Origin: Aquitalea aquatica
Lineage (GTDB): Bacteria > Pseudomonadota > Gammaproteobacteria > Burkholderiales > Chromobacteriaceae
Reading direction: 5' to 3'
DNA: 64,000 nt
NCBI RefSeq assembly: GCF_013911085.1
Contig: NZ_JACERN010000033.1
Span: 124,001 to 188,000, forward strand
Shown: positions 22,483-43,766 of the stretch, piece by piece
Layout: each line of letters begins with the position of its first letter
Position numbering within the stretch: position 1 is the first letter of the stretch
Notes under the pieces: generated by a model
Seen by the model: the letters and a program-made list of their open reading frames with translations, nothing else
Told to the model about the DNA's origin: nothing
Database searches by the model: none
Program-made: the position numbers and the translations under genes

Positions 22483-22507
22483 CCCGGCCAACCAACAAGG
22501 AGAAATC

Positions 22508-24488: not shown

Positions 24489-24612
24489 AGCCAGCACGCA
24501 TCCCGGCACATGGCCATGGCCATGGCCAGCGTCGCCGGATGCCTACCACATGGTTGACCGCAGCTGACGCAGCAAAGCCTTGTCGCCTGCCGTTTCTTGT
24601 CAGGAGTTTCCG

Positions 24613-25278: not shown

Positions 25279-26207
25279 GCATCTTGTTTGTCTTTCCCGG
25301 CCAGGGCAGCCAGCGCCCCGGCATGCTGCAACAGCTACCGCAACACGCGGCCTGTCATGCGGTACTGGCCGAGGCCGAGGCCGTGCTGGGCAGTTCGCCG
25401 CACTTGCTGGATTCTGCCGCCGCGCTGCGCTCCACGGTGGCAGTACAGCTCTGCCTGCTGATTGCCGGCGTGGCCTCGGCCCGTCTGCTGCAAGCAGCAG
25501 GCATCCAGCCGCAGATGGTGGCTGGCTTGTCGATTGGTGCCTTTGCCGCCGCCGTAGTGGCCGAGGCGCTGCCGCTGGTCGATGCCCTGCGCCTGGTGCG
25601 GCGGCGTGGCCAGTTGATGGAGCAGGCCTATCCGCAGGGCTATGGCCTGTGCGCGGTATCCGGACTGGACCTGCCGCAGCTGGACAGCCTGCTGGCACAG
25701 CTGCGGGCTACCGGCAGCCCGCTCTATCTGGCCAATATCAATGCCGAGCGCCAACTGGTGGTGGCCGGCAGCGACACAGGCCTGCAGCAGCTGGCCAGCC
25801 TGATCCAGAGCAGTGGGGCCGGCCGCTGCCAGCGGCTGGACATCAGCGTGCCTTCGCACTGCAGCCTGCTGGATGAAGCTGCCAGCGCGCTGCATCAGGA
25901 TTTCATCCGCATCCGCCTGGCCGCGCCACGGCTGGACTACCTCAGCGCCAGCGCCGCCCGCCTACTGCGGCGGCCCGAGCAGATTGCCGATGATCTGGCC
26001 GGCAATATGGCGCGGCTGGTGCGCTGGCACGACTGTAGCCGACTGGCTTATGAACGCGGCGCACGGCTGGCGGTGGAAATGCTGCCTGGCAGCACCCTGA
26101 GCAAGTTGCTTGCTGCGGTATTTGAAGACGGCACCGCACTGGCCCTGGCCACCACCCGGCTGGACAGCCTGCAAGCCCAGGCCAGCCGGCTGCAGGCTCA
26201 GGACTGA
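25275..26207 (+). CDS. mdcH: Malonyl-CoA:ACP malonyltransferase of malonate decarboxylase
   Basis: 310 residues, FabD-like acyltransferase that primes the decarboxylase with malonyl. FPGQGSQ opens the protein and VAGLSIGAF contains the catalytic S86 (GLSIG in place of FabD GHSLG, usual for MdcH). A catalytic His follows in SVPSHCSLLD. Last gene of the operon; it converges with the aminotransferase gene six bases away, with no hairpin between. Confidence 0.93.
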   Translation: MSILFVFPGQGSQRPGMLQQLPQHAACHAVLAEAEAVLGSSPHLLDSAAALRSTVAVQLCLLIAGVASARLLQAAGIQPQMVAGLSIGAFAAAVVAEALPLVDALRLVRRRGQLMEQAYPQGYGLCAVSGLDLPQLDSLLAQLRATGSPLYLANINAERQLVVAGSDTGLQQLASLIQSSGAGRCQRLDISVPSHCSLLDEAASALHQDFIRIRLAAPRLDYLSASAARLLRRPEQIADDLAGNMARLVRWHDCSRLAYERGARLAVEMLPGSTLSKLLAAVFEDGTALALATTRLDSLQAQASRLQAQD

Positions 26208-26213
26208 TGCCGG

Positions 26214-27548
26214 CTACCGTGCGGCCAGCACCGCGTCCAGCGCATCCAGCAACAAGTCGGCATGTTCGCGGGCAAACGGCAGCTGCGGCCGCAGTTTGAG
26301 GATATTGCCGGCCGGTCCGGTGGCACTGAGCAGGATGCGCCGCTCGCGCAGCGCATTGACCACACGGCTGGCGGCGGCGGTGGCCGGCTGTTTGCCTTGA
26401 CGGTCGTTCACCAGTTCCACCCCAAGGAAAAAACCGGCACCGCGCACATCGCCGATCAGCTCGTGCTTGCCGGCCAGCGCCTGCAACCCTGCCTTGAGAT
26501 ACGCCCCGGTGACGTGGGCATTGTGCTGCAAGCCTTCTTGTTCGATCACCTCCAGCACGGCCATACCGGCGGCACAGGACACCGGATTGCCACCAAAGGT
26601 ATTGAAGTAGCGCACGCGGCTGCCAAAGGCATCGATGATGTCGGCACGCGCCGCCAGCCCGGCCAGCGGGTGACCATTGCCCATCGGCTTGCCCATGGTG
26701 ACGATGTCCGGCTGCACACCATGGCGCTGGAAGCCCCAGAAATGGCTGCCACTGCGGGCAAAGCCGGCCTGTACTTCGTCGGCAATGAACAAGCCGCCTG
26801 CTGCATGAATGGCATCGACCGCACCAGCCAGGAAACCGGGCGGGTCGGCAAACACGCCATCGCTGGTAAACAGCGTATCCACCAGCAGTGCAGCCGGGCG
26901 CAGGCCGTGGCGCTGCAGGTCGGCAATCGCCGCCTGCACATCGTGGGTAAAGCGCGTGGCGACATCCTCGCCGGCCACGCCACGGTAGCTATCCGGGGTG
27001 GGCACGGTACGCACATTCGGCCCCAGCGCCACGCCCTCGCCAAAAGCTGGCGAACAGGCCGCCACGCTACTGGTGACGCCATGGTAGGCATGGGCGGTGA
27101 CAATCACCCCTTGCCCACCGGTGAAATTGCTCGCCAGCCGCAAGGCCAGATCGTTGGCCTCGCTGCCGGTACAGGTAAACATGGCCTGATGACCCGGCAT
27201 GGCCAGAGTGGCCAGCAGGCGCTCGGCATAATCGACAATGCCTTCATCCAGGTAACGGGTATGGGTGTTGAGCGTGGCCGCCTGGCGGGCAATGGCCTGC
27301 ACCACCTGCGGATGGCTATGCCCTACCGAGGCGACATTGTTGTAGACATCCAGATAGGGCTGGCCGGCGGCGTCGTACAGCCACACCCCCTCGCCGCGCA
27401 GCAGATGCAAGGGCTGCTGATAGAACAGGCGATATGCCTGCCCCAGTGCCTGTTGGCGACGGCGGATCAGCGCCTGCTCACGGGCAGGCAGGCTGGCCAG
27501 CGTGCCCGGATCAAAGGCATTGGCCATGCGTTGGTCTGGCGGATTCAT
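26214..27548 (-). CDS. Class III aminotransferase / phospho-lyase
   Basis: 444 residues, fold-type I PLP enzyme of class III. TGSEANDLALRLA binds the PLP phosphate, D257 in IADEVQAGF binds the pyridine nitrogen, and K287 in MGKPMGNGHPLAG forms the Schiff base. The closest subgroup by these segments is the AGXT2L (ethanolamine-phosphate / 5-phosphohydroxy-L-lysine phospho-lyase) group, which eliminates phosphate rather than transaminating. Its coupling to a kinase of the hydroxylysine-kinase type supports a phospho-lyase. The start at 27548 overlaps the kinase stop (ATGA). Third gene of an SDR-kinase-lyase operon. Confidence 0.75.
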   Translation of the reverse strand: MNPPDQRMANAFDPGTLASLPAREQALIRRRQQALGQAYRLFYQQPLHLLRGEGVWLYDAAGQPYLDVYNNVASVGHSHPQVVQAIARQAATLNTHTRYLDEGIVDYAERLLATLAMPGHQAMFTCTGSEANDLALRLASNFTGGQGVIVTAHAYHGVTSSVAACSPAFGEGVALGPNVRTVPTPDSYRGVAGEDVATRFTHDVQAAIADLQRHGLRPAALLVDTLFTSDGVFADPPGFLAGAVDAIHAAGGLFIADEVQAGFARSGSHFWGFQRHGVQPDIVTMGKPMGNGHPLAGLAARADIIDAFGSRVRYFNTFGGNPVSCAAGMAVLEVIEQEGLQHNAHVTGAYLKAGLQALAGKHELIGDVRGAGFFLGVELVNDRQGKQPATAAASRVVNALRERRILLSATGPAGNILKLRPQLPFAREHADLLLDALDAVLAAR

Positions 27549-28627
27549 GCTGCTCCTTTCGTCTGGCACAACTGCTGCAGATAGGCGGTGGCGCGTGCCG
27601 GGCCGAATGCGGCCAGCCGTTGCAGGCCATCCCAGCTCAGGCCGTTGTTGCGCAGGATATAACTGCGATTTTCCGGATAACGTGCCGCCCGCCAGCCGGT
27701 GATGGTGACCGTCATGCACAGCCGGGTCATGATCAAGGAATACAGCAGATCAATTTCGCCCGGCAGCAAGGGACAGACCGCGTGGTAGCCGGCAATCAGC
27801 TCGCCGGCACTATCCAGCGGATTGGCGGTGGTGGACAGCTGGTAGGAACAGGCCACCGCCAGCTCGTTGATCAAGGGTGCTTCCACCATGTCACCAAAGT
27901 CGATCAGGCCGGCGGTGCTGATCTGGTCTTGCGCATCCACCAGCACATTGTGCGGGTTCAGGTCATTGTGAATCACCTGCCGGCGCAGTCCACCCAGCTG
28001 CGGCTGCACCTGCTGCATGAACTGCGCCAGCCAGTCGGCCAGCACCGCCTTTTGCGGCCCGTCCGGGGTTTCCGCCAGCAAGGGCTGCAGCCGCTGGGCA
28101 TGCTGGATATCCCACAACAGCGGGTGATGGGCTGCCGGGTGGGCATAGTCGCGCAAGGCATTGTCCAGCCGGCCCAGCGTCTGCCCCAGATGACGGCGCT
28201 GGGCCGCACTGCGCTGAGTCTGGTGCAAGGGCTGGCCGGCCAGATAACTGAGCAGGCGCAGCACGCGCAGGCTGCCATCGACCATTTCGACCAGGGCATA
28301 GGGCTGGCCATCGCGGCGTGGCAGCAACTGCGGAATGGGCAGGGTCGGGTCCTGCGCCAGCGCGTGCAGCAAGGCACGGCTCTGGAAATCGGTAACGGCG
28401 CGGTCCTCCGCCGGGTGGCTCAGCTTCAACACATATTCGCGGCCATCGTAGCCACGGATGTGGAAATTGGCATCGCGCTCGCTATTGAGCGGGCTGGCCA
28501 CACCGCGCAGGCCGTAATGCTGCCACAGCAAGGCGGTGGCCTCGCTGCACTCCACCGGCGCGGCGGCGGTGGAAAACAGCTGATCGATCACGCCTTCGGA
28601 CACCTCTGCGGACACGGTTTCAGACAT
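27545..28627 (-). CDS. APH-family small-molecule kinase, hydroxylysine-kinase-like
   Basis: 360 residues, aminoglycoside-phosphotransferase fold. An N-terminal NSERDANFHIRGYDGREYVLK nucleotide-binding region (quoted in part) is followed by the catalytic loop HNDLNPHNVLV (H220, D222, N227) and DFG at 243-245. LIDFGDMVEAPLINELAVA is typical of the hydroxylysine kinase (HYKK/AGPHD1) group and of the kinase half of kinase-aminotransferase fusions. Likely it phosphorylates a hydroxy-amine such as 5-hydroxylysine, and the adjacent PLP enzyme removes the phosphate. Substrate is inferred, not shown. Start overlaps the SDR stop by 8 bases. Confidence 0.7.
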   Translation of the reverse strand: MSETVSAEVSEGVIDQLFSTAAAPVECSEATALLWQHYGLRGVASPLNSERDANFHIRGYDGREYVLKLSHPAEDRAVTDFQSRALLHALAQDPTLPIPQLLPRRDGQPYALVEMVDGSLRVLRLLSYLAGQPLHQTQRSAAQRRHLGQTLGRLDNALRDYAHPAAHHPLLWDIQHAQRLQPLLAETPDGPQKAVLADWLAQFMQQVQPQLGGLRRQVIHNDLNPHNVLVDAQDQISTAGLIDFGDMVEAPLINELAVACSYQLSTTANPLDSAGELIAGYHAVCPLLPGEIDLLYSLIMTRLCMTVTITGWRAARYPENRSYILRNNGLSWDGLQRLAAFGPARATAYLQQLCQTKGAA

Positions 28628-29360
28628 GCTGGCCACCGTTGATGTGGATTTCCGAGCCGTTGATATAAGAAGAATGGCCAGAGCAAAGGAAATAAATGGC
28701 CTCGGCCACTTCATGCGGCGTACCCAGGCGGTGCATCGGCACATCACGCTCGATAATGCGGGCGGTATCCGGTGACAGGATGGCGGTGTCGATTTCGCCC
28801 GGCGCAATGGCATTGGCGCGGATGCCATGCGGGCCGAACTCGTGCGCCAGCTCGCGGGTGAGTGCCGCCAAGCCGGCCTTGGAGGCGGCATAGGCCACGC
28901 CGGCAAACGGGTGCACGCGCGAGCCGGCAATGGACGTGACATTGACAATGGAGCCCTGCCCCTGTTTCAGCTCGGCAAACAAGCCACGCGCCAGCAAGGC
29001 GGTGGACACCAGATTCACATTCAGCACCCGGCTCCAGTCATCGGCAGCGCTGGCCAGAATGCCCAGCCGCTCACCCTGCGGCCCCTTGGGCGAGATACCG
29101 GCGTTGTTCACCAGCGCGTGCAGCTCGCCATTTGGCAGGCGGCTTTGTACTTCGGCAATCAGCTGGTCGAGGCAGGACAGGTCGGACAAATCGGCCTGGA
29201 TATGGCTTTGCCGTGCCGATGGCCACAGGCAGGCCTCGGAAAATGGCTGGCGTGACACGGTGAAAATCTGCCAGTCATGCTCCTGAAACAGCTTGACCGT
29301 GGCATGGCCGATGCCGCGACTGGCACCAGTCAACAACATATAGCGGGTAGATGGGGACAT
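28620..29360 (-). CDS. Short-chain dehydrogenase/reductase
   Basis: 246 residues, classical SDR. NAD(P) site TGASRGIG at 11-18, structural NNAG at 85-88, catalytic S143, Y157 and K161. The C-terminal SSYINGSEIHINGG is usual. First gene of the operon with the kinase and PLP lyase, and divergent from a GntR regulator. Its substrate is unknown; context suggests it acts on the hydroxy or aldehyde intermediate of the same pathway. Confidence 0.85.
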   Translation of the reverse strand: MSPSTRYMLLTGASRGIGHATVKLFQEHDWQIFTVSRQPFSEACLWPSARQSHIQADLSDLSCLDQLIAEVQSRLPNGELHALVNNAGISPKGPQGERLGILASAADDWSRVLNVNLVSTALLARGLFAELKQGQGSIVNVTSIAGSRVHPFAGVAYAASKAGLAALTRELAHEFGPHGIRANAIAPGEIDTAILSPDTARIIERDVPMHRLGTPHEVAEAIYFLCSGHSSYINGSEIHINGGQHV

Positions 29361-29426: not shown

Positions 29427-29493
29427 TTTGCTGCATTTCCATCTGGCAAGCACGGTGTTACCATGCCGCCATCACCCTTTCGTCCGCTGCGCC

Positions 29494-30165
29494 ATGCACT
29501 ACCAACTCGACACCCTGGAACACGACAATCTGGGCAGCACGGTCTACCAGCTGCTGTGCAATGACTTGCTGCAAGGCCGGCTGCAGCCTGGCGCACGGCT
29601 GAAAATCCGCGAACTGGCCGAGCAACTGGGCACCAGCGTCACCCCGGTGCGTGATGCCATCCTGCGGCTGGTGCAGGAGCAGGCGCTGGCCATGCAATCG
29701 CCGCGCGACATTCGCGTGCCCTACATGACGGTGGAGCGTTATCTGGAAATACGCGCCATCCGCATCCGGCTGGAAGGGCTGGCGGCGGAAACCGCCGCGA
29801 CCAAGGCACAGCCAGCCGACATCACCCGGCTGGAAGAGATCGTAGCGCGCAATGCTGTGGCCATGACCGCGCAGGACATCGCGCTGGGCTGCGCGCTGAA
29901 CCAGCAGTTTCACTTTGCCCTGGTCGACATTGCCGGCCTGCCCTTCCTGCACGGCATTCTTTACCGCATCTGGCTGCAAATGGGGCCGCTGATCGCTGCC
30001 GTCTACCAGCAAGGGGGCAGCGCCATGCTGGATTATCACTACCCGGTGATGGCAGCAATGCGCCAAGGCGATGGCGCGGCGGCGGCACTGGCCATTGGCG
30101 ACGATATTCTCAGCGGTGGCCAGGCCATCCTGCTGCATCTGCAAGCCCGCCAGAGCGCCGGCTGA
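29494..30165 (+). CDS. GntR-family regulator, FCD (FadR) subfamily
   Basis: 223 residues. N-terminal winged helix with GARLKIRELAEQLGTSVTPVRDAI (quoted region ~35-60) and a C-terminal all-helical FCD ligand domain whose metal/ligand residues include an R-x-x-(I/L)-E at 80-90 and H residues near NQQFHFAL and YHYPVMAAM. Probably a repressor of the divergent SDR-kinase-lyase operon relieved by a pathway metabolite. The start at 29494 gives the family length; the frame extends upstream through the operator region and should not be used. Confidence 0.88.
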   Translation: MHYQLDTLEHDNLGSTVYQLLCNDLLQGRLQPGARLKIRELAEQLGTSVTPVRDAILRLVQEQALAMQSPRDIRVPYMTVERYLEIRAIRIRLEGLAAETAATKAQPADITRLEEIVARNAVAMTAQDIALGCALNQQFHFALVDIAGLPFLHGILYRIWLQMGPLIAAVYQQGGSAMLDYHYPVMAAMRQGDGAAAALAIGDDILSGGQAILLHLQARQSAG

Positions 30166-30658: not shown

Positions 30659-31600
30659 TCAGGCCATCAGGTAAATCAGCGCCGCTTCACCAAACACACC
30701 AATCACCGTCCCCACCAGTACCGAGTGCGAGGCATGCAGGGCGTAGGTCTGGTTGCGCACGGCAAACATCGAGGCGGCAATCGCCGTCGGCACCGCTCCC
30801 ACGATCAAGGCCTGGCGGGCAAACTCGGCATCCACGCCAAACAGCAGGACACCCAGCAGCATCAGCGCCGGCTGCAGGAAATTCTTCATCGCCACATTAC
30901 CCACCACATGGCCGTTGAACGCCGGTTTTTCGCCGCAGAACATCAGGCCCAGCGCCAGCAAGGACACGCCACCGGCCGCCTTGGCCAGCATGTCCACACT
31001 CTCCTGCACTGCCGCCGGCAGGTGCAGATGATTGAAGCTCAGCACCACCCCCAGAATGGGCAGCCAGACAATCTGATTAGACAGGGTCTTCACCATGCTC
31101 TGTTTCAGCATGGTCACCACCCCATCATCACTGCCAGAGGCGGACATTTCGCCACAGCGGCACAGCACGATGGTCAGCGGCAGGATGATAAAGCTGGTGA
31201 TCAGGTTGCCAATCAGTACCGCGATAAAGCCCTGCGGCCCGCACACCTGCTGCAGAATGGGCGCGCCAAAGTAGGCCATATCGGGAAAGGTACAGACCAG
31301 CGCCTGGATGGCGCTGCTTTTCAGATCACTACGGTAGTAATAACGCCCAGCCAGCAAGGCCAGGACGTAAGTGCCGACAAAGCCAAAGGTCAGGCACAAG
31401 ATAAACGGCACATTCTGGATGCGCTCCGGCGGCGTTTTCAGCGCGCCGATAAATAGCGAACAAGGCAAGGCATAGCGCATCACCAGCGTGGCCAACACGC
31501 TGACATCCGCCTGACGGAAATAGCCACGCTGCCCGCCAAACCAGCCCAACATCATCAACAGCACCACTGGCAGCAGTGCCGTGCTCATCGTTCCCAGCAT
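30659..31600 (-). CDS. AEC-family dicarboxylate (malonate/malate-type) permease
   Basis: 313 residues with about ten hydrophobic segments in two five-helix halves, the auxin-efflux-carrier (AEC) fold that includes the malonate carrier MdcF and malate permeases. The short hydrophilic central loop and the conserved FPDMAYFGAPIL and GNLITSFIILPL segments are family features. The start at 31600 has AAGGAG eight bases upstream. It could serve the mdc operon 4 kb away, which lacks its own mdcF. However, it has a sigma-54 promoter with DctD-like sites and is divergent from a fumarate-reductase-like operon, which argues for C4-dicarboxylates. Substrate is undecided. Confidence 0.8.
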   Translation of the reverse strand: MLGTMSTALLPVVLLMMLGWFGGQRGYFRQADVSVLATLVMRYALPCSLFIGALKTPPERIQNVPFILCLTFGFVGTYVLALLAGRYYYRSDLKSSAIQALVCTFPDMAYFGAPILQQVCGPQGFIAVLIGNLITSFIILPLTIVLCRCGEMSASGSDDGVVTMLKQSMVKTLSNQIVWLPILGVVLSFNHLHLPAAVQESVDMLAKAAGGVSLLALGLMFCGEKPAFNGHVVGNVAMKNFLQPALMLLGVLLFGVDAEFARQALIVGAVPTAIAASMFAVRNQTYALHASHSVLVGTVIGVFGEAALIYLMA

Positions 31601-31644
31601 GTTATTGCTCCTTATTTCTGCAAAGTGTCTCTCACCACTTGCAT

Positions 31645-31660
31645 AGCAAGGCGCATGCCA
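31645..31660 (-). promoter_or_regulatory. Sigma-54 promoter of the AEC carrier
   Basis: On the minus strand TGGCATGCGCCTTGCT matches the -24/-12 consensus TGGCACG-N4-TTGCW with one change. It lies 45 bases before the start codon, an appropriate distance. Confidence 0.65.
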
Positions 31661-31723
31661 TCGCACAACAACAACAAGTCATTGATTTTAATAAACAAAT
31701 AAACACATCTCGCCGCCACAGTA

Positions 31724-31765
31724 CGGTTTCCCGCGAATCCGTCGCGCCCAGCGCGCGGAAAACCG
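31724..31765. promoter_or_regulatory. Enhancer-like site pair 1 (CGG-N4-CCG)
   Basis: CGG-TTTC-CCG (31724-31733) and CGG-AAAA-CCG (31756-31765, extended GCGG...CCGC) lie 32 bases apart, 64-105 bases upstream of the AEC sigma-54 promoter. The shape resembles rhizobial DctD sites (GCGG-AAAT-CCGC, from memory). Confidence 0.5.
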
Positions 31766-31802
31766 CACGCGCCAGCCAAGCCCACTGCCCCCAAGCCAGA
31801 CA

Positions 31803-31845
31803 GGGTTTTCCGTCGATCCGGCCATGACAAAAACACGGAATTCCG
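31803..31845. promoter_or_regulatory. Enhancer-like site pair 2 (SGG-N4-CCG)
   Basis: GGG-TTTT-CCG (31803-31812) and CGG-AATT-CCG (31836-31845, perfect palindrome) lie 33 bases apart, 77-120 bases upstream of the sigma-54 promoter at 31922. Same form and spacing as pair 1, nearer to the other promoter. Confidence 0.5.
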
Positions 31846-31921
31846 ACGCCCACCAGCTCTGCACGCAGCAAAAATTTGCCATTTTTCTTTATTTTCAACA
31901 ACTTGCCAAATCACAAGGCGG

Positions 31922-31937
31922 TGGCACGCTCCTTGCA
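31922..31937 (+). promoter_or_regulatory. Sigma-54 promoter of the Fe-S/flavoprotein/NuoF operon
   Basis: TGGCACGCTCCTTGCA is a full match to the -24/-12 consensus, 83 bases before the first start codon. Confidence 0.8.
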
Positions 31938-32019
31938 AAGCCCCGACCAAGGGCCAGGCCATCCACCCGCCGGCGATCCGCACGGGCCGGTGGCCAGCAC
32001 CACAGCAAAGGAAATCCCC

Positions 32020-32667
32020 ATGAGTGAAACCATCTGCATCAGCATTGACGGCAAGGTGATGGCCGCACAGCCAGGCGACTCCATCCTGCAAACCCGGCTG
32101 CACGGCCCCGAGGCCGTTACCGCCAATATCGGCTGCATGGGCCAGGGGGTGTGCGGCTCCTGTCGCTGCCTGGTCCGCAAGGCCGGCGAGCGCGAAACCG
32201 TCAGCCGGCTGGCCTGCGAAACCGAGGTGGAAGACGGCATGCAGGTCAGCTTCATCGACTACTACCAGCCCGACCACGTCCACCGTTATCGCCCGCATGA
32301 TCTGCGCGACGGCTGGCAGGCACTACCGCAACTGCAGCAGACCTTTCCCGAAACCGCCCACTGCCGCCACTGCGGCGGTTGCGACCGCGCCTGTCCGCGT
32401 GGCATCCCGGTGCAGCAAGGCATTGCCCTGGCCAGCCGTGGCGAGCTGCCCGCCGCTGCCGCGCTGTTCGACGCCTGCATCATGTGCAATCTGTGCACCC
32501 TGGCCTGCCCGGAAAACATCCGCCCCAATCATGTCGGGCTCTACCTGCGCCGCGCCCAGGCCATCCAGAACCTGCGCCCCGGCGACCTGTTGCGCCGACT
32601 GGATCAACAAGCCCGTGGCCAGTTGAGCATCGACACCACGGCCCATCTTGCAAGGAGCGAGTCATGA
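32020..32667 (+). CDS. SdhB/FrdB-like iron-sulfur protein
   Basis: 215 residues. The N-terminal plant-type ferredoxin domain has the [2Fe-2S] ligands in GCMGQGVCGSCRC (about 37-49) and a later RLAC. The C-terminal domain has two CxxCxxCxxxCP motifs (CRHCGGCDRACP and CIMCNLCTLACP) for two [4Fe-4S] clusters. This is the electron wire of succinate dehydrogenase/fumarate reductase-type enzymes. In contrast to SdhB (which has 2Fe, 4Fe and 3Fe clusters), both C-terminal motifs have four cysteines, as in soluble relatives. The ATG at 32020 follows AAGGAAA; overlaps the next gene by four bases. Confidence 0.85.
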   Translation: MSETICISIDGKVMAAQPGDSILQTRLHGPEAVTANIGCMGQGVCGSCRCLVRKAGERETVSRLACETEVEDGMQVSFIDYYQPDHVHRYRPHDLRDGWQALPQLQQTFPETAHCRHCGGCDRACPRGIPVQQGIALASRGELPAAAALFDACIMCNLCTLACPENIRPNHVGLYLRRAQAIQNLRPGDLLRRLDQQARGQLSIDTTAHLARSES

Positions 32668-34298
32668 GCACAGCCATTTCCTACCAGCAGGCCTGCCTTA
32701 ACCGGGCCAGCCATGCCACACCGCCACTGCGGGCGGACGATCTGTCACGCGCTGCACTGTTGGCGCAACACCACCCCGACCACGCTGCCGATGCCAGCAC
32801 CCTGCTGCAAATCGGCAGCAGCCGTGGCCAGCCCTGCCACCCGCGCCTGGCCGAACTGCTGCAAAGCAATGCCTTGATTGACGGCTTTGATCTGGCCGGT
32901 GCCGAACAACGCAGCACCGACGTGCTGGTGCTAGGCGGCGGCGGTGCCGGTGCGGCAGCCGCACTGACCGCCGCCCGTGGCGGGGCCACGGTCATGCTGG
33001 CCAGCAAGCTGCGGCTGGGCGACAGCAATACCGTGATGGCCGAAGGCGGCATCCAGGCCGCACTGGCCGCCAGCGACAGCCCGCAACAGCATTTCGACGA
33101 CGCCATGCGCGGCGGCCACAACTGCGCCGATCCGCAACTGCTGGCCCAACTGGCCAGCGATGCAGCCGGTGTCATCCGCTGGCTGATCGAACTGGGCATG
33201 CATTTTGACCTGACCGATGCCAGCTGCGACGGCGGCAAGCTGCGCTACAAGCAAGCCGGCGGCTGCAGCCAGCCACGCATTCTGTCCTACCGCGATTACA
33301 CCGGGCTGGAGATGATGCGCGTGCTGCGCGAAACGGTGGAACTGGAGCCGGGCATCCAGCTGTTGAACCGCTGCCCGGTGGTGGAATTGCTGTCGCACGA
33401 AGACGGCAGCTGCGCCGGTGCCGTGCTGTACGACCTGGAATACCAGCGCTTCATCGTGGTGTCGGCCCGGCAAACCATTCTGGCTACCGGCGGCTGCGGC
33501 CGGCTGCATCTGCAAGGCTTTCCCACCTCCAATCACTACGGTGCCACTGCCGATGGCCTGGTGCTGGCCTACCGCCTGGGCGCGCAACTGCGTGATATGG
33601 ATGCCTTCCAGTACCACCCCACCGGGGTGGCCTGGCCGCAGCGTTTGCGCGGCGGGCTGATCTCCGAAGCCGCCCGCTCGGCCGGTGCCATGCTGCTGAA
33701 CGGTCTGGGTGAGCGCTTTGTCGATGAACTGGCGCCGCGTGATGTCGTCACCGCCGCCATGCTGCGCGAATGCGCCGCCGGCCGTGGCATCGAGCGCGAC
33801 GGTCAGCAAGGCGTATTTCTCGACCTGCGCCGCCTGTGTGGCCCGGACCAGCCCGCGCTGGCCAGCCAGCTGCCGGCACTGCAGCACCTGGCCGACAAAT
33901 GCGGCATCGACCCGATGCGCGAGCCCATGCTGGTCTACCCCACCCTGCACTACCAGAACGGCGGCGTGGTAATCGACAGCCAGGGCCAGAGCAGCGTGCC
34001 CGGCCTGCTGTGTGCCGGGGAAATCACCGGCGGCATTCATGGCCGCAACCGGTTGATGGGCAATGCCCTGCTCGACATCCTCGCCTTTGGCCGCCGCGCC
34101 GGCCGCCAGGCGGCACGGCTGGCCCAGGCTGCCCGCAACAAATCATCGCTGCCGCCCCTGCGCGGCGGTATCGAACACGTTTATCGCTGGCAGCGCCAGC
34201 TGGCCCTGGCCGGACTGGACGCCAGCCAGCAAGCCCCGCTGCTGTATCCGGGCCAGGCCAGGCTGACACTGCACCGCCCCGCCAGCGCACGCGCCTAA
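32664..34298 (+). CDS. Fumarate reductase/succinate dehydrogenase-like flavoprotein
   Basis: 544 residues. The FAD Rossmann motif GGGGAGAAAA lies at 91-100. Catalytic residues of the family are present: H318 in QYHPTG, R338 in ISEAARSAGA, H429 in LHYQNGG and R463 in GRNRLMGN. The histidine that binds FAD covalently in SdhA/FrdA is replaced by N122 (SNTVMAEGG), so FAD should be non-covalent, as in soluble fumarate reductases and L-aspartate oxidase. A ~85-residue N-terminal extension precedes the FAD domain. It is coupled to the Fe-S gene and followed by a NuoF-like gene, with no membrane-anchor genes. I infer a cytoplasmic NADH-driven reductase of fumarate or a similar unsaturated acid. Confidence 0.8.
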   Translation: MSTAISYQQACLNRASHATPPLRADDLSRAALLAQHHPDHAADASTLLQIGSSRGQPCHPRLAELLQSNALIDGFDLAGAEQRSTDVLVLGGGGAGAAAALTAARGGATVMLASKLRLGDSNTVMAEGGIQAALAASDSPQQHFDDAMRGGHNCADPQLLAQLASDAAGVIRWLIELGMHFDLTDASCDGGKLRYKQAGGCSQPRILSYRDYTGLEMMRVLRETVELEPGIQLLNRCPVVELLSHEDGSCAGAVLYDLEYQRFIVVSARQTILATGGCGRLHLQGFPTSNHYGATADGLVLAYRLGAQLRDMDAFQYHPTGVAWPQRLRGGLISEAARSAGAMLLNGLGERFVDELAPRDVVTAAMLRECAAGRGIERDGQQGVFLDLRRLCGPDQPALASQLPALQHLADKCGIDPMREPMLVYPTLHYQNGGVVIDSQGQSSVPGLLCAGEITGGIHGRNRLMGNALLDILAFGRRAGRQAARLAQAARNKSSLPPLRGGIEHVYRWQRQLALAGLDASQQAPLLYPGQARLTLHRPASARA

Positions 34299-34310
34299 GA
34301 GAACACAATC

Positions 34311-35561
34311 ATGGAAAAACTCAATCAGGTATTGCTCAACCCGGCCGTACAGGTCGGCCCCGATCTGGCCGCCTGGCTGCAAGCGGGCGGCGGCCTTGGG
34401 CTGCAAGCGGCCCTCACGGCCCCCACCGCCATCATCCGCTGCATTGCCGATGCCGACCTGCGCGGCATGGGCGGGGCCGGCTTTCCGGCCTGGCGCAAAT
34501 GGGAAGCCACCGCCAATGCGGTGGGCGATTGCAAGTACGTGGTGTGCAATGGCAATGAAGACGAACCGGGCACCTTCAAGGACCGCACCCTGCTCAGCGC
34601 ATCGCCGCACCAGGTGATAGAAGGCGCACTGATCGCCGCGCTGGCCGTGCGCGCCCGCTGCCTCATCTTCTACCTCAACCCGCACCAGGGCAGCAGCCTG
34701 CACACCATGCAGCAGGCAGTCAGCCAGTGGCAGGACAGCCCCTGGCCGGAAAAACTGGCTGCCGTCATGGGCCATGCACTGGAAATCAAGGTGGTGGCCA
34801 GCTCGGGCCGCTATATCGGCGGGGAAGAAACCGCCGTGGTCGCCTCGCTGGAAGCCGGCTTTCCCTTCCCGCGCAAAAAGCCGCCTTTCCCGGCCGAGCA
34901 AGGCATCAACAACCAGCCCACGCTGATCAACAATGTGGAAACCCTGGCCAATGTCAGCCACATCCTGCGCCACGGTGCCGGCTGGTACCGGGCACTGGGC
35001 GTGGGCAAGGCCTGCGGCACCAAGCTGTACTCGCTGTCCGGCGACGTACTGCGCCCCGGTCTGTACGAGCTGCCCATGGGCTCCAGCCTGCAAGAGCTGG
35101 TGTTCCACTACGGCGGCGGCATGTTGCAGGGCAAGGCCTTCAAGGCGGTATTTACCGGCGGCCCGTCCAATACCCTGCTCACCGCGCGCGATCTGGACGT
35201 GGCACTGGATTTCGACTCGGTCTGGCTGCGTCATTCGCGGCTGGGCACCGGTGCCATGATCGTCATCTCCGAAGGCAGCAGCATCATCCGCAAGGTGGCC
35301 GAATACATCGACTTCTTCGCCAAGGGTTCCTGCGGCCAGTGCCCCTCGTGCAAATGCGGCACCTTCCAGCTGGCCCGCCTGCTGGACCGGGTAGATGGCG
35401 GCCGCCACAGCCCGGCCGATCTGGATGCGCTGCAGCACCTGTGCCAGATCCTGCCCGGCAGTGGCCGCTGCGGCCTGATCGACGGCGCGGTCACCGTGGT
35501 GAAAAGCTCACTGCACACCTTTCCCGAGGAATACGGCCTGCTAGTCCAGCAACCAGCCTGA
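34311..35561 (+). CDS. NuoF-like NADH/FMN/[4Fe-4S] electron-input subunit
   Basis: 416 residues, homologous to the NADH-binding 51-kDa subunit of complex I and to HoxF/FdsB. The NADH loop is GMGGAGFPAWRKW. The FMN site is GNEDEPGTFKDR with YIGGEETAVVASLE. The N3-type cluster ligands are CGQCPSC and a later C in GRCGLIDGA. It starts 12 bases after the flavoprotein gene. As there are no other complex I genes and no anchor subunit, it most likely feeds NADH electrons through its cluster to the SdhB-like protein and the flavoprotein. Confidence 0.85.
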   Translation: MEKLNQVLLNPAVQVGPDLAAWLQAGGGLGLQAALTAPTAIIRCIADADLRGMGGAGFPAWRKWEATANAVGDCKYVVCNGNEDEPGTFKDRTLLSASPHQVIEGALIAALAVRARCLIFYLNPHQGSSLHTMQQAVSQWQDSPWPEKLAAVMGHALEIKVVASSGRYIGGEETAVVASLEAGFPFPRKKPPFPAEQGINNQPTLINNVETLANVSHILRHGAGWYRALGVGKACGTKLYSLSGDVLRPGLYELPMGSSLQELVFHYGGGMLQGKAFKAVFTGGPSNTLLTARDLDVALDFDSVWLRHSRLGTGAMIVISEGSSIIRKVAEYIDFFAKGSCGQCPSCKCGTFQLARLLDRVDGGRHSPADLDALQHLCQILPGSGRCGLIDGAVTVVKSSLHTFPEEYGLLVQQPA

Positions 35562-35628: not shown

Positions 35629-36120
35629 ATGCAACACCAGACCATTGCCGGCAGCACCCCGGCACTACGCTTTTTGCTGGACCACAAGGTGGAATTCAGC
35701 TGCCACGCCTACCGCTACGAAGAACACGGCGGCACCGCCACCCCGGCCCGCGAACTGGAGGTAAACGAACACGCGGTGATCAAGACCCTGCTGTTTGAAG
35801 ACCAGGACGGCCTGCCGCTGGTGGTACTGATGCACGGCGATTGCAAGGTATCGGCCAAGGAACTGGCGCGCCAGTTGCCTTGCAAAAAAGTGCAGCCGTG
35901 CAAGCCCGACGTGGCCAACCGCCACTCCGGCTACCTGGTAGGCGGCACCAGCCCCTTTGCCACCCGCACGCCGATGCCGGTGTATATGGAAGCCAGCATC
36001 CTGCAACTGCCCAAGGTCTATATCAACGGTGGCCGCCGTGGCCTGCAGGTGGCGATGTCACCGATAGACATTGGCCGCCTGCTGCAGGCGCGCTGTGTGG
36101 AAGTGGCGCTGGCGAAGTGA
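35629..36120 (+). CDS. ybaK: Cys-tRNA(Pro)/Cys-tRNA(Cys) deacylase YbaK
   Basis: 163 residues of the YbaK/EbsC trans-editing family, which hydrolyses Cys wrongly attached to tRNA(Pro). Family features seen are HAVIKTLLFED, the catalytic-pocket lysine region CKVSAKELARQL and the GYLVGGTSPFATR loop. Slightly longer than usual at the N-terminus. Starts 67 bases after the NuoF-like gene and may be transcribed from the same sigma-54 promoter, although functionally unrelated. Confidence 0.92.
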   Translation: MQHQTIAGSTPALRFLLDHKVEFSCHAYRYEEHGGTATPARELEVNEHAVIKTLLFEDQDGLPLVVLMHGDCKVSAKELARQLPCKKVQPCKPDVANRHSGYLVGGTSPFATRTPMPVYMEASILQLPKVYINGGRRGLQVAMSPIDIGRLLQARCVEVALAK

Positions 36121-38623: not shown

Positions 38624-39943
38624 TTACTTTTCTTCCAGATCGTATTTGCGGATCTTGTCGAATAGCGTGGTCTTGGCGATTTTCAGCACTTCGGCGGTTT
38701 TGGAGACATTACCGCCCTGTTTGCGCAGTTCTTCGGCAATCATGCCCTTTTCAAAGGATTCCACTGCCGCGTGCAGGGTGAGCTGGGTGTCGGCGGCGGC
38801 GGTACCCGGCACCATTTTCAGGTCCAGCACAAAGCGATCGGCCTGGTTGCGCAATTCGCGCACATTGCCCGGCCAGTGGTAGGCCATCAGGTCGCGTACC
38901 ACTTCCGGGGTGATGACCGGTGCCGGGCGGTTCATGCGCAGGGCGGACTGGCTAACGAAGTAGTCGAACAGCAGCGGGATATCCTCGCGCCGGGCGCGCA
39001 AGGGTGGCAGGTCCAGCGTGACCACGTTCAAGCGGAAATACAGGTCGGCGCGGAATTTGTCCTCATCGGCCAGCTTGGACAGATCGGCCTTGGTGGCGGC
39101 AATCACGCGAAAATCCACCGGAATCAGCCGGTTGGAGCCCAGCCGTTCGATCACCCTTTCCTGCAGCACCCGTAATAGCTTGATCTGCATCGGCATGCTC
39201 ATGCTTTCGATTTCGTCCAGAAACAGCGTACCGTGCTGGGCGTATTCGATCTTGCCTATACGCTGCTTGCTGGCCCCGGAAAACGCGCCGGCTTCGTGGC
39301 CGAACATTTCGCTGTCAAACAGGGTTTCCGGCAGGCCGCCGCAATTGAGCGCCACAAAGGGGCCGGTGCGCCCGGAGAGGTCGTGCAGACAGCGCGCCAG
39401 CAGTTCCTTGCCGGCACCGGTTTCGCCATTGATCAGGATGTCGGTGGGGGTAGCCGCCACGCCCTGCACCAGTCGGCGCAGTTCGGCCATTACACCAGAA
39501 TTGCCGATCAGCCGGCTTTCCAGGCCGCCAAATGCCGCCAGTTGGCGGCGCAGCTGGCGTACTTCCAGTGCCAGCCGGCGTTTTTCCATGGCGCGCTGCA
39601 CTACCGATACCAGCACCTGTGGCAGGAAGGGTTTCTGGATGAAGTCGTAAGCGCCGTCGCGCATCGCCTGCACGGCCATGGCGATGTCGCCGTGGCCGGT
39701 GATGAGGATGACCGGCAGGTCGGGATCGTCGGCCAGCAGCTCCTGCATGAAGGCCAGCCCGTCCATGCCGGGCAGGCGGATATCGCTGACGATGATGCCG
39801 GCAAAATCACGGCCAATGGCGCGGCGGGCCTTTTCCACCGAATCGAAGCCCTGCGCCGGAATGCCATCCAGCCCCAGTGCCTGCACATAGCCCAGCTGGA
39901 CGTCCTGGTCGTCCTCGATCACCAGTACCTGAAGATTGCTCAT
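38624..39943 (-). CDS. dctD: DctD-type sigma-54-dependent response regulator
   Basis: 439 residues: receiver domain (phospho-acceptor D54 in VSDIRLPGMD, K104), AAA+ domain with Walker A GETGAGKE (173-180), and a C-terminal Fis-type helix-turn-helix (NVSKTAEVLKIAKTTLFDKI). The sigma-54 contact loop is GAFSGA (219-224) rather than the usual GAFTGA. The partner gene dctB ends three bases upstream. DctD activates C4-dicarboxylate genes from enhancers; candidate CGG-N4-CCG sites precede three operons in this window. Name rests on the DctB-like partner and neighbours; other NtrC-family regulators are possible. Confidence 0.85.
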   Translation of the reverse strand: MSNLQVLVIEDDQDVQLGYVQALGLDGIPAQGFDSVEKARRAIGRDFAGIIVSDIRLPGMDGLAFMQELLADDPDLPVILITGHGDIAMAVQAMRDGAYDFIQKPFLPQVLVSVVQRAMEKRRLALEVRQLRRQLAAFGGLESRLIGNSGVMAELRRLVQGVAATPTDILINGETGAGKELLARCLHDLSGRTGPFVALNCGGLPETLFDSEMFGHEAGAFSGASKQRIGKIEYAQHGTLFLDEIESMSMPMQIKLLRVLQERVIERLGSNRLIPVDFRVIAATKADLSKLADEDKFRADLYFRLNVVTLDLPPLRARREDIPLLFDYFVSQSALRMNRPAPVITPEVVRDLMAYHWPGNVRELRNQADRFVLDLKMVPGTAAADTQLTLHAAVESFEKGMIAEELRKQGGNVSKTAEVLKIAKTTLFDKIRKYDLEEK

Positions 39944-39946
39944 GTT

Positions 39947-41770
39947 TTACTCCTGCCTGTTTTGTCTGAGCGTGATGGTGAATACCGCTCCGCCATCCGG
40001 GTGATTGTCGGCGGACAATACGCCGCCATAGGCCTTGATGATGTCCGAGGACAGCGCCAGGCCCAGCCCCAGCCCGCTGGTTTTCTTGGTGGTAAAGAAG
40101 GGTTCGAAAATATGCTGTCTGACCTGTTCCGACAGGCCGCTGCCATTGTCACGCACCTGGATGCGTACGATGTCGTCCTGGCGTTGCCAACTGATGGCGA
40201 TCAGCGGGTCGGCCACTTCCTGTAGCGCATCAATGGCATTGCTGACCAGGTTCACCAGCACCTGCTCCAGCCGCACCGCTTCGCACAGCACCACGATGTC
40301 TTCCGGCTGGGCGGGCAGCTGCAGCCGGATCAGGGTTTTCTTCAGCCGGTGATTGAGCAGGAACAGTGCATTGTCCACGGCCTGTGCCACTGCGACGGAT
40401 TCGCGTTCGCCACTGGGGCGGCGGGCAAAGGATTTCAGCTGCTCGGTGAGCGCACCCAGCCGTGCCACGATGTCGGTAATGCGCTCCAGATTGGTCCGCG
40501 CGGTGGCCAGGTCGTTGATTTCCAGAAAGCGCACGGTATTGGCCGATAGTGCGGACAAGGCAGCCAGCGGCTGGTTGATCTCGTGGGCGATGCCGGTGGA
40601 CAGCTGGCCGATCACCGCCAGGTTTTCGGTGCGGATCAGCTCGTTCTGAAAGTTCTCCACCTGGCGCGCAGCCTGGATGCGCTCCTCGATTTCCATTTTC
40701 AGGCTGGCATTAGCCTGTTTCAGCTCGCTGCTGCGCTGTTCTACTTGCTCTTCCAGCTGGTCATGGGCGCGCTGCAGGGCGCGGCGGGCCTCGGCCTGAG
40801 TCTTGATGCCCATGCGCCACAGCCGTACCGAGTGCAACAGCAGGCAGGCAAAGCCCACCATCACCGCCACTGCCAGCGCCCGGGTCAGCGCCAGACTGTG
40901 CATTTCGTGGGTATCAATCACCATGGTCAGCGTCATGCCGCTGACCGGGATGGTCTGATTGATGGCCAGATATTCGTGCCGAGTGCGGCCCTGCCCCATC
41001 TGCACCAGCATGGCCTGGTTGTTGAGCACGCTTTTGCGCTGCCAGATGGGCGGCTTGATGATCTGCTTGTTGTACTGCTGGGCTTTTTCCAGTGCCAGCC
41101 GGGCGTCAAAGCTGAGCGGCACCGTGGCGTGGTATTTCCATTCCGGCACCGATGACAGCACCACCACGCCATTGGAATCCGACACCAGCAAGGGCTCCAC
41201 GATATTGCCCCACATGTGCTCCAGCTGTTCCAGCCCGATCTTGATGGCCACCACGCCCAGCCGCTCGCCCCCCTGGTAGATGCCGGTGGCCAGATAAAAT
41301 CCCGTCGCGTTGCCGGTGGTACCCACGGCGTAAAAGGTGGTGATGCGATTGGCCGCCGCCTGCTGGAAATACGGGCGATAGGCGATATTGCGCCCGACAA
41401 AGCTGTCTTTTTGCTGCCAGTTGCTGGAGGCAATCACCTTGCCCTGCTTGTCCATCAGATAGGCCTGCAAGGAGCCGGCCCCCTGATTGAGCCGCAGCAG
41501 GTAGTCATTGGCACGGGCCAGCTGTGGCGGATCGGCCGGCTGCAGCAGCGCTTCGCGCAGGGTGTCGTTATACGATGCTGCCAGTGGCAGCAGGCCGTAT
41601 TTGTCCACCTCGTGCTCCAGAAAGCCGGCATTGCGTGCCAGCCGCCGTGCCGACTCCTGCTGCCGCTGCTGTAACAGCTGCTGCCAGCTGATGCTGTACA
41701 CCGCATACGCGGCCAGCAGCGACAGCAGCATGGAAAACAGCAGATAAAGATAAAAACGGGTTCGCTTCAT
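39947..41770 (-). CDS. dctB: DctB-type C4-dicarboxylate sensor histidine kinase
   Basis: 607 residues. A membrane helix (6-28), a large periplasmic double-Cache sensor domain (~30-290; motifs YRPYFQQA and FYLATGIYQ typical of DctB), a second membrane helix (~295-315), a coiled coil (325-375), then HisKA with H396 in GIAHEINQPLAAL, and HATPase (NAIDAL, DNGSGL, GLGLGLALS). Phosphorylates DctD in response to external dicarboxylates in known systems. Transcribed as dctB-dctD. Confidence 0.9.
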   Translation of the reverse strand: MKRTRFYLYLLFSMLLSLLAAYAVYSISWQQLLQQRQQESARRLARNAGFLEHEVDKYGLLPLAASYNDTLREALLQPADPPQLARANDYLLRLNQGAGSLQAYLMDKQGKVIASSNWQQKDSFVGRNIAYRPYFQQAAANRITTFYAVGTTGNATGFYLATGIYQGGERLGVVAIKIGLEQLEHMWGNIVEPLLVSDSNGVVVLSSVPEWKYHATVPLSFDARLALEKAQQYNKQIIKPPIWQRKSVLNNQAMLVQMGQGRTRHEYLAINQTIPVSGMTLTMVIDTHEMHSLALTRALAVAVMVGFACLLLHSVRLWRMGIKTQAEARRALQRAHDQLEEQVEQRSSELKQANASLKMEIEERIQAARQVENFQNELIRTENLAVIGQLSTGIAHEINQPLAALSALSANTVRFLEINDLATARTNLERITDIVARLGALTEQLKSFARRPSGERESVAVAQAVDNALFLLNHRLKKTLIRLQLPAQPEDIVVLCEAVRLEQVLVNLVSNAIDALQEVADPLIAISWQRQDDIVRIQVRDNGSGLSEQVRQHIFEPFFTTKKTSGLGLGLALSSDIIKAYGGVLSADNHPDGGAVFTITLRQNRQE

Positions 41771-41882
41771 ACCAACTCCGGGTCACACACCCGTCTGACT
41801 GGAAAAACCGGCCTTGCTGCAGCCATGGCGGGCGCATTATCCCACAATCCCCAGCTGATTATTGCATCGCAGCATGACAAGC

Positions 41883-41912
41883 AAAAAAGCCACGCAGGGT
41901 CATCTGCGTGGC
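41883..41912 (-). terminator. Terminator of the malic enzyme-exporter operon
   Basis: On the minus strand GCCACGCAG pairs with CTGCGTGGC and is followed by T6, 49 bases after the exporter stop. Confidence 0.8.
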
Positions 41913-41960
41913 AAGGTCATGGCAGAACCACGACGACCGAAAGGAGAAAGAACAAGACAG

Positions 41961-43643
41961 CTAGAACACGTTGACCAGCACGATGGTGAACACAGCCATC
42001 ACCAGCCGGGACACGGCATACCCTACGGTATAGCCCAGTGCCGGCACCTTGCTCTGGGCGGCGTCCTGCAATGCACCCAGCGCGGCGGTGGTGGAACGGG
42101 CGCCGGCGCAGGCTCCCAGCAGGATGCCAGGGTGGAACTTGAACACGAAACGCCCCAGCAGCAGGCCGACAATCAGCGGCACCATGGTAACCACAGCACC
42201 GGCAAACAGCAGGGTCAGGCCGTATTGTTGCAGGCCGGAAATGAAGCCCGGCGCAGCGTTCAGGCCGATGACCGCGATAAAGCCGTTCAGGCCGACATTA
42301 TTGAACACCCACAGCGCCGGGCCGGGGATCTTGCCAAAAGTACGCATGGAAGCACGCAGGTAGCCGCAGACAATACCGGCCACAATGGAGCCCACCGAAG
42401 TACCGAAGCTGAGCGGGATACCGGCCACGTGCACGGTGATGGCACCCAGAATGCTACCGGCCACGATACCGAAGCCCATAAAGGCCATGTCGGAGTTTTC
42501 CAGCGGACGGTCGGCATAGCCCAGTTGCTTGGCCACTACGGCCACGTCCTGCTTGGCACCCAGAATGGTCAGCACGTCGCCGCGTTGCACCACCACATCC
42601 TGCCCCATCGGCATGTCGAGATCACCACGGCTGAAACGGGTGAGGAACAGGCCACGGCCAGGCTTGCCGAACAGTTCGCCGGTGATGTCGCCCAGCGTCT
42701 TGCCGGCGTATTTGCGACTGGTCACCACCAGGTCGAGCAACTCGGTGGAGAAGTCCAGCAGCGGCACGTCTTTCACTTCCTGGCCGAAATGGTGCTGGTA
42801 TTTCAGCAGCGCGGTCAGCGTGCCGGAAATGGCCACCACATCATTACGCTGAATACGGGTGCTGCCTTCGCAATCGACAATCTTGGCACCCACGGCCTGA
42901 CGCACGCGGCGCACGAAGATTTCGTGGTTGAACATGGCTTCCACTTCGGAAACCGTCTTGTCGAACAGATCAACATTGTTCAGCTGGAAGGCACGGGCGG
43001 AAAACTCGCGGTACGCGGTGCTACCCACGGTGTGGCCGCTGCCGTTTTCCTTTTCGTAGGTCTTGCACTCTTCCACCAGGTTGAAGCCCAGCACTTTCGG
43101 TGCAAAGGAAGCCAGAAACCAGGCCGAACCGGCAGTGCCGAAGGGATAGGTCACGGCATAGGCCACCGGCATCAGCGCCATGGCCACCTTCACGCCACCG
43201 GGCATCTGGCTGGCCTGATTGAGCAGGTCGGTCGCCACACCCAGCACGGTGGAATTGGTATAGCCACCGGACAGCAGGCCGGCAGTCAGCGCGGCATCAT
43301 AGTGCAGCATCTTGCCCAGCAAGATGGCGGTGAACAGGCCAGAGGCACACACCAGCACGGTAAAGAACACTTGCGAGATACCGTCGCTCTTGAGGGCGCG
43401 GATGAATTGCGGCCCCACGGCGTAGCCGACGGCAAACAGGAACATGGCAAAGAAGGTGGATTGCAGCACCGCCGGAATCACCAGATGCACCTGGCCAATC
43501 AACAGGCCAGCCAGCAAGGTGGAGGTAACCACCCCCAGATTGAACTTGCCCAGATTGAGGTTACCCACCCAGAAACCGACGGCGATGGTCAGATAGATCG
43601 CAATCTCCGGGTATTTCTGCAGGGTATGAATGATGTAGTCCAT
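41961..43643 (-). CDS. AspT/YidE-family dicarboxylate antiporter
   Basis: 560 residues from the ATG at 43643 (AGGTGT upstream). Two blocks of about five hydrophobic segments flank a central cytoplasmic region with two TrkA_C/RCK_C-like domains (~205-375), the layout of the aspartate:alanine exchanger family, which also includes succinate exporters. Family sequences include FLFAVGYAVGPQF and LLSGGYTNSTVLG. It is transcribed with malic enzyme (63-base gap) from a sigma-54 promoter, which favours a C4-dicarboxylate such as succinate, malate or aspartate as substrate. Confidence 0.82.
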   Translation of the reverse strand: MDYIIHTLQKYPEIAIYLTIAVGFWVGNLNLGKFNLGVVTSTLLAGLLIGQVHLVIPAVLQSTFFAMFLFAVGYAVGPQFIRALKSDGISQVFFTVLVCASGLFTAILLGKMLHYDAALTAGLLSGGYTNSTVLGVATDLLNQASQMPGGVKVAMALMPVAYAVTYPFGTAGSAWFLASFAPKVLGFNLVEECKTYEKENGSGHTVGSTAYREFSARAFQLNNVDLFDKTVSEVEAMFNHEIFVRRVRQAVGAKIVDCEGSTRIQRNDVVAISGTLTALLKYQHHFGQEVKDVPLLDFSTELLDLVVTSRKYAGKTLGDITGELFGKPGRGLFLTRFSRGDLDMPMGQDVVVQRGDVLTILGAKQDVAVVAKQLGYADRPLENSDMAFMGFGIVAGSILGAITVHVAGIPLSFGTSVGSIVAGIVCGYLRASMRTFGKIPGPALWVFNNVGLNGFIAVIGLNAAPGFISGLQQYGLTLLFAGAVVTMVPLIVGLLLGRFVFKFHPGILLGACAGARSTTAALGALQDAAQSKVPALGYTVGYAVSRLVMAVFTIVLVNVF

Positions 43644-43766
43644 GATAGACACCTTTGTTTGGTCAGCCACCACCAGCCGACATGTCGTACCGGTGGTGAC
43701 CATCAGGCGCGAAGCACCCGTCAGCTATTCACGCGCCACCCGTCCGGGCGGCGCATGTCTTCCCTC

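Follow-up and report, generated by a model that had tools for sequence, protein, structure and literature searches.

A candidate three-subunit soluble NADH:fumarate reductase in Aquitalea and other bacteria

A 64,000-nucleotide stretch of the Aquitalea aquatica genome (positions 124,001 to 188,000 of contig NZ_JACERN010000033.1, hereafter the window) contains three adjoining plus-strand genes at 32020–35561. They encode, in order, an iron-sulfur protein (FeS), a flavoprotein of the FrdA type and a NuoF-like protein. The trio probably forms a cytoplasmic, soluble, heterotrimeric reductase that uses NADH (reduced nicotinamide adenine dinucleotide) to reduce fumarate. It is best read as a compact, operonic and widely distributed variant of the Hydrogenobacter type of soluble NADH-dependent fumarate reductase. 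The genes, their motifs, their conserved linkage and the lack of membrane anchors are visible in the DNA itself.

From these features we infer a complex, an order of electron transfer, a substrate, a direction and a physiological role. NADH would hand a hydride to the flavin mononucleotide (FMN) of the NuoF-like subunit, and electrons would leave FMN one at a time through an N3-type 4Fe-4S cluster. In FeS, two 4Fe-4S clusters and one 2Fe-2S cluster would carry them onward to the non-covalently bound flavin adenine dinucleotide (FAD) of the flavoprotein, which would reduce fumarate to succinate. The NADH module of complex I would here stand in for two parts of complex II, its membrane anchor and its quinone site. 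In chemoautotroph relatives the enzyme would be the fumarate-reducing step of the reductive tricarboxylic acid (TCA) cycle; in Aquitalea and other heterotrophs it would more likely serve to regenerate NAD+ from NADH, with C4 acids as the source of the fumarate.

Organization, linkage and distribution of the trio

None of the three open reading frames (ORFs) has an internal stop. The ATG of the flavoprotein gene overlaps the stop codon of FeS, and the NuoF-like gene begins after a gap of 12 nt. All three are under purifying selection – dN/dS is 0.10–0.25 against three Aquitalea loci and Propionivibrio (L031–L034, with L034 contributing two of the three genes) – and have a third-position GC of 0.80–0.83. 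The first-pass annotation had described the genes as coupled, and these results agree. The source genome belongs to Aquitalea; its flavoprotein and that of A. palustris are 99% identical. In Pfam, the flavoprotein matches FAD_binding_2 and the NuoF-like protein matches Complex1_51K and NADH_4Fe-4S; FeS matches Fer4_17 and Fer4_9 above the cut-off, with Fer2_4 slightly short of it (22.2 vs 22.8 bits).

The same annotation had noted the absence of membrane anchors, and this was borne out. No gene for a complex-II-type anchor adjoins the trio in the gene map and Pfam matches of the window. A hydropathy scan found no convincing transmembrane helix in any of the three proteins, while the neighbouring AEC-family transporter, used as a control, gave eight segments. 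Two 19-residue windows are marginal: one coincides with a cluster motif of FeS (1.77), and the other is in the NuoF-like protein (1.83). The flavoprotein has none.

Genome contigs were scanned with the flavoprotein; 185 stretches encode a relative, and 80 named loci were kept. FeS is directly upstream of the flavoprotein in 74 of these, and the full trio is present in the same order in 68, so that the genome survey proposed in the first-pass annotation finds the NuoF-like gene travelling with the other two. Hosts include Aquitalea, Propionivibrio dicarboxylicus, Cupriavidus, Paraburkholderia, Caballeronia, Variovorax, Pseudomonas, Nitrosomonas, Nitrotoga and deep-sea tubeworm symbionts. Among 61 genomes close to that of the window (its own included), 8 encode the flavoprotein at E 1e-60, and every one of these belongs to the same genus. 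A phylum survey of 398 genomes gave 31 matches at E 1e-75, one of them the source genome itself; wider DNA was taken for 13 of the 30 others (the distant loci). In a quick tree the family is separate from E. coli SdhA, FrdA and NadB and forms three clades: a heterotroph clade of 48 rows that takes in the window, one of 31 rows in which sulfur and nitrogen oxidisers predominate, and a remoter one of 20 rows to which Ilyobacter belongs. Two rows stand alone, and several joins are on long branches.

Some of the distribution counts against a three-subunit enzyme. The trio is incomplete in 12 of the 80 loci; in L034, L078 and L096 the contig stops at the expected start of NuoF, and the remaining contigs have room for it. 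In five loci (L079–L081, L092, L101) FeS is kept and a different gene stands in the place of NuoF. In six Thiotrichaceae loci (L078, L089, L096, L102, L104, L107) there is no adjoining FeS gene despite at least 1.4 kb of upstream sequence. The pairwise identities of the three proteins correlate closely (r 0.95–0.98 across 64 loci, against a maximum of 0.32 in 2000 label permutations), a figure that ignores shared species history.

The five loci without NuoF would suit an arrangement in which the NuoF-like protein lies outside the enzyme, and FeS and the flavoprotein are fed by thiols or by an Hdr/Flx module. So would the Ilyobacter pair, which sits behind genes for HdrA, FlpD, Fe-S and NAD(P)-flavin proteins, and, if it is the same pair, the tfrAB pair of the Riftia symbiont, for which an excerpt of PMC11636981 proposes feeding via Hdr-Flx. 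Such an arrangement is very improbable, given that NuoF is directly downstream in 68 of the 80 loci and diverges in step with its neighbours. Electron input to the FeS–flavoprotein pair does seem modular, because of the genes upstream of the Ilyobacter pair.

Two gene sets were seen beside the pair or the flavoprotein alone. On an Ilyobacter polytropus plasmid (L111, 2–7503), the genes before FeS and the flavoprotein encode an HdrA-like protein, FlpD, two Fe-S proteins and one NAD(P)/FAD protein, which might provide this core with a bifurcating input. In the Thiotrichaceae loci L089, L096, L102 and L107, two uncharacterised genes (of ~123 and ~392 amino acids (aa)) precede the flavoprotein at the place of FeS; the one ~392-aa protein scanned had no Pfam matches.

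Active site and predicted electron path

The flavoprotein was aligned with E. coli K-12 references in 99 rows, 80 from the named (core) loci and 19 distant. Its dicarboxylate site consists of His318, Ser334, Glu335, Arg338, Arg359, His429 and Arg463. The residues at E. coli FrdA H232, E245, R248 and R287 are identical throughout, in all 80 core rows and all 19 distant ones; the equivalents of H355 and R390 are found in each of the 19 distant rows and in 79 of the 80 core rows, the one gap fitting the truncated contig of L034. The first-pass annotation had credited the protein with all the catalytic residues of fumarate reductase. The His/Glu/Arg set agrees with that; the columns of Phe116 and Thr244 differ. 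The AlphaFold2 model of the flavoprotein (mean pLDDT 82.8, with low values around the FAD loops) has E. coli FrdA (1kf6) as its top PDB match, with E 7e-34 and a TM-score of 0.67. The displayed rows lack the C-terminal helical domain and are extended by ~80 residues at the N-terminus.

The position of FrdA His44, the site of covalent FAD attachment, is Asn in 99 of 99 rows. All 99 rows have Glu at position 49, as does FrdA; E. coli SdhA and NadB and Aquitalea's own SdhA and NadB have Gln there. Glu49 and the lack of a FAD-linking His are associated with reductases rather than succinate oxidases, and the sequence of this family fits a reductase better. The same two features speak against an enzyme that oxidises a dicarboxylate or related acid with NAD+, a direction that is improbable for the trio. 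It is suggested by the membership of SdhA, a dehydrogenase, in the fold family and by the NuoF-type subunits of NAD-dependent formate dehydrogenases and NAD-reducing hydrogenases (as named in PDB molecule records). Oxidation of succinate by NAD+ would also be strongly unfavourable because the potentials are +33 mV for fumarate/succinate and -320 mV for NAD+/NADH, as given in an excerpt of PMC5861303.

L-aspartate, which the first-pass annotation had named as a possible unrelated substrate, is not upheld. At the column of NadB Glu121, the residue that binds the amino group of the substrate, every one of the 99 rows has Ala, Pro or Gly, and the flavoprotein scores 290 bits against the curated L-aspartate oxidase cut-off of 452.75; that enzyme is ruled out on both counts. 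The only other relatives of the flavoprotein found in the Aquitalea genome are SdhA and NadB, each encoded elsewhere.

In FeS, the 2Fe-2S cysteines (Cys39, 45, 48 and 66) are conserved among relatives, and the eight cysteines of two CX2CX2CX3C motifs (Cys115–125 and Cys153–163) are complete in all 74 core rows and all 14 distant ones. At the position of FrdB V207 (sequence position 208), an Ile in SdhB, Cys is found in each of the 88 rows; this fourth cysteine predicts a 4Fe-4S cluster instead of the quinone-side 3Fe-4S cluster. The earlier description of FeS as SdhB-like holds for the order of the cysteines, which aligns with FrdB, and less so for the rest of the protein. Most sequence matches are to Fe-S proteins of other kinds, with CODH/ACS alpha at the top and FrdB reaching E 0.028, and fold matches (Nfn/Stn/HydA, NuoG, SDHB) have low TM-scores throughout. 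The kinship to SdhB is loose; other Fe-S proteins score as high or higher.

The NuoF-like protein has the residues expected of an NADH/FMN input subunit, as had been proposed from the window alone: all 68 rows keep NuoF E93, E95, T98, K100, Y178 and E183, and the four N3 cysteines are complete in each of the 67 rows with sequence there. It scores 364.6 bits against the curated NuoF cut-off of 558.65, and the Aquitalea genome has two other NuoF homologues at 36–37% identity. The gene is therefore probably not the complex I gene.

The best PDB sequence matches of this subunit include those of the bifurcating Nfn, Stn and Hyd enzymes, the top (low-TM) fold matches of FeS are Fe-S subunits of the same complexes, and reduced ferredoxin is needed by the autotroph relatives. 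A bifurcating fumarate reductase that also reduces ferredoxin would account for these points and is nevertheless extremely improbable. Pfam finds only NuoF core domains in the 416-aa protein. T98 and K100 are invariant, Tyr236 is present in 62 of 67 rows (Phe, the bifurcating state, in 5), and GGPSG is found in 0 of 67, with a similar GGPSN in 63. Bifurcating homologues of NuoF have extra Fe-S domains and A/E232, M234, F367 and GGPSG, according to an excerpt of PMC7311640, and by those features the signature here appears mostly non-bifurcating.

Gene context and the choice of substrate

In the distant loci, the flavoprotein gene is followed by SucC, SucD and the alpha and beta subunits of a 2-oxoacid:acceptor oxidoreductase in 13 of 13 cases and preceded by FeS in 12 of 13. 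This order would read as fumarate to succinate to succinyl-CoA (coenzyme A) to 2-oxoglutarate, the next steps of the reductive TCA cycle. The last substrate is assigned because of the SucCD neighbours; the oxidoreductase models do not tell it. Five gammaproteobacterial or symbiont loci also have the oxidoreductase pair behind the trio: immediately so in L087 and L098, and beyond one small opposite-strand ORF in L091, L094 and L109. In five other loci, aconitase and a transhydrogenase subunit adjoin FeS and the flavoprotein. Neighbours were identified from one scanned representative per cluster, and the PntB label of cluster 28 was given by eye. Eight of the 13 distant loci also have a gene for a protein of 262–300 aa upstream of FeS (7149–7997 in L118, and its counterparts); the one scanned has no Pfam matches, and it may be an electron-input partner.

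Fumarate is the likely substrate in the autotroph clades and, somewhat less surely, in Aquitalea and the heterotroph clade. The alpha subunit of 2-oxoacid:acceptor oxidoreductase was not found in the Aquitalea genome (one genome searched), and the role there is therefore not carbon fixation by the reductive TCA cycle. In the heterotroph clade, transporters are common near the trio. In 27 of the 47 named loci, a gene for a DASS anion transporter is found no more than 4.3 kb from the flavoprotein. Its position varies, and the subgroups near the trio are as low as 33–37% in identity to the query transporter, which suggests that the association arose repeatedly. Of nine hand-chosen genomes, seven have a DASS gene near the trio; eight have 1–4 DASS genes and one has none, and in one Pseudomonas the sole DASS gene found is the one adjoining the trio. 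In all five Aquitalea loci, including the window, an AEC transporter takes the place of DASS.

Several observations weigh against fumarate, or against a classical enzyme. FrdA Phe116 (also Phe in SdhA) is replaced by Ala, Pro or Gly in the family, and Thr244 is Ser across the heterotroph clade, so that the pocket differs from that of the classical enzymes. The flavoprotein is well below the curated cut-offs for succinate dehydrogenase and fumarate reductase (286 vs 567 bits), and in many heterotroph loci the neighbouring genes give no metabolic hint of the substrate. Together with the DASS and AEC transporters and the exclusion of a reductive-TCA role in this genome, the altered pocket could mean that the same NADH-driven complex acts in the heterotroph clade on a different unsaturated di- or tricarboxylate (maleate, mesaconate, itaconate or aconitate) imported by the neighbouring transporter. 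This is rather unlikely: the Phe116 column also varies (A, P, G) inside the autotroph clades, where the context says fumarate, the hydroxyl survives the change of Thr to Ser, and the carboxylate-binding His/Arg set is unaltered. A broader form of the idea has a similarly low probability. In it, FeS and the flavoprotein would be a soluble, quinone-free core of dicarboxylate reductases that has been retargeted in aerobic heterotrophs to a non-fumarate acid imported by its own transporter, giving a new NADH:enoate reductase. Its inputs would be interchangeable: the NuoF-like protein for NADH, an Hdr/Flp module in Ilyobacter and other partners elsewhere. Reduction of fumarate by the trio is the reading retained.

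The closest neighbours of the trio in the window are the genes for the AEC transporter and for a YbaK-family protein, the latter probably of separate function (Table 1).

Table 1. Genes of the trio and its surroundings in the window
Feature	Coordinates	Strand	Description
Iron-sulfur subunit (FeS)	32020..32667	+	215 aa; N-terminal 2Fe-2S ferredoxin-like domain and two CX2CX2CX3C motifs
FrdA-type flavoprotein	32664..34298	+	544 aa; ~80-aa N-terminal extension, FAD_binding_2 core, shortened C-terminus
NuoF-like NADH/FMN subunit	34311..35561	+	416 aa; N3-type 4Fe-4S (Cys341, 344, 347, 387)
AEC-family (Mem_trans) transporter	30659..31666	-	divergent; candidate organic-acid permease
GntR/FCD regulator ORF	29428..30165	+	accompanies the AEC gene in four other named Aquitalea loci
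YbaK-family Cys-tRNA(Pro) deacylase	35629..36120	+	144.7 bits, slightly under the cut-off of 153.25

Promoter and terminator scans of the locus gave matches at the level of shuffled sequences, and an Rfam search of the upstream region (31600–32100) gave none. No claim is made for an FNR-type anaerobic site: the best 14-mer reached 9/10 in 5 of 71 upstream regions, 3 of them from Aquitalea, and ~1.4% of random 350-bp (base pair) stretches score at least 9.

Three other gene sets lie further out in the window. A malonate decarboxylase cluster (mdcA, mdcB, beta, gamma and mdcH, by NCBIfam) is upstream of the trio at 19964–26207. On the minus strand at 26214–28948, a kinase-like gene and a class-III aminotransferase gene, separate from each other, correspond to the two ends of the fused PRK06148 model, the middle of which neither gene matches, with an SDR gene adjoining. 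Genes for a sigma-54 response regulator, a sensor kinase, an aspartate-alanine antiporter homologue and malic enzyme (38624–45425, minus strand) look related to C4 acids. A malate-dismutation set composed of these genes, 4–10 kb downstream of the trio, was considered and not used as evidence: relatives were not found in the other Aquitalea loci, as compared over flanks of at most 10 kb (one truncated by its contig), with malic enzyme near that distance limit.

Comparison with known systems and implications

Complex II (E. coli FrdABCD and SdhCDAB) and the trio are alike in the active site of the flavoprotein and in an Fe-S protein with a 2Fe-2S and two further cluster motifs. Unlike complex II, the trio has no anchors, no covalent-FAD His and a 4Fe-4S motif in place of 3Fe-4S, and its flavoprotein, in the rows displayed, has an N-terminal extension and no C-terminal helical domain. 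With the NuoF modules of complex I, formate dehydrogenase (beta subunit) and HydB, the NuoF-like protein has the NADH/FMN/N3 core in common; it differs from complex I NuoF in its sub-cut-off score, and there is no NuoE-like gene in the operon.

The TfrAB proteins of methanogens and the tubeworm "tfrAB" resemble the trio in being an Fe-S protein and flavoprotein pair without an anchor. The TfrB protein has a cysteine-rich domain. The best NCBIfam match of the flavoprotein is the TfrA model, yet at 320 bits against a cut-off of 718; the trio has a NuoF-like partner, and its FeS has only Fer4/Fer2-type matches and none to the cysteine-rich domain. That score and the missing domain set the trio apart from the fumarate reductase that uses coenzymes M and B (CoM/CoB). 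For the Riftia symbiont, an excerpt of PMC11636981 calls tfrAB a thiol-fumarate reductase and proposes supply via Hdr-Flx. In the Escarpia and Lamellibrachia symbiont loci, the NuoF-like gene is directly downstream of the pair, which suggests that NADH may supply it directly there.

The closest likeness is to the soluble NADH-dependent fumarate reductase of Hydrogenobacter thermophilus, FrdABCDE, which Miura et al. reportedly described in 2008 as an enzyme of five subunits with scattered genes. The activity is that of EC 1.3.1.6. As FrdABCDE is described and the trio predicted, both are soluble, bacterial and supplied by NADH, with an FrdA-like catalytic subunit and a role in the reductive TCA cycle. 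They differ in that FrdABCDE is said to be encoded by five scattered genes and the trio is three genes in one operon. An excerpt of PMC11508158 also names FrdABCDE as NADH-dependent. At the sequence level, the trio has the features of such an enzyme – an FrdA-type site, a linked NADH/FMN subunit and no anchor. The first-pass annotation had proposed a soluble route from NADH to a C4 acid and named no bacterial equivalent; the route is still the best reading, and the Hydrogenobacter precedent had been missed. No report of a NuoF-containing three-subunit fumarate reductase, or of its purification, was found in the open-licence literature.

Fumarate reduction is usually viewed as a membrane-bound, quinone-linked step. 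If the trio is what it appears to be, it would explain how chemoautotrophs with reductive TCA genes, including tubeworm symbionts, feed fumarate reduction directly with NADH. It would also be a cytoplasmic NADH sink for heterotrophs such as Cupriavidus, Paraburkholderia and Pseudomonas, and a three-gene cassette for succinate production.

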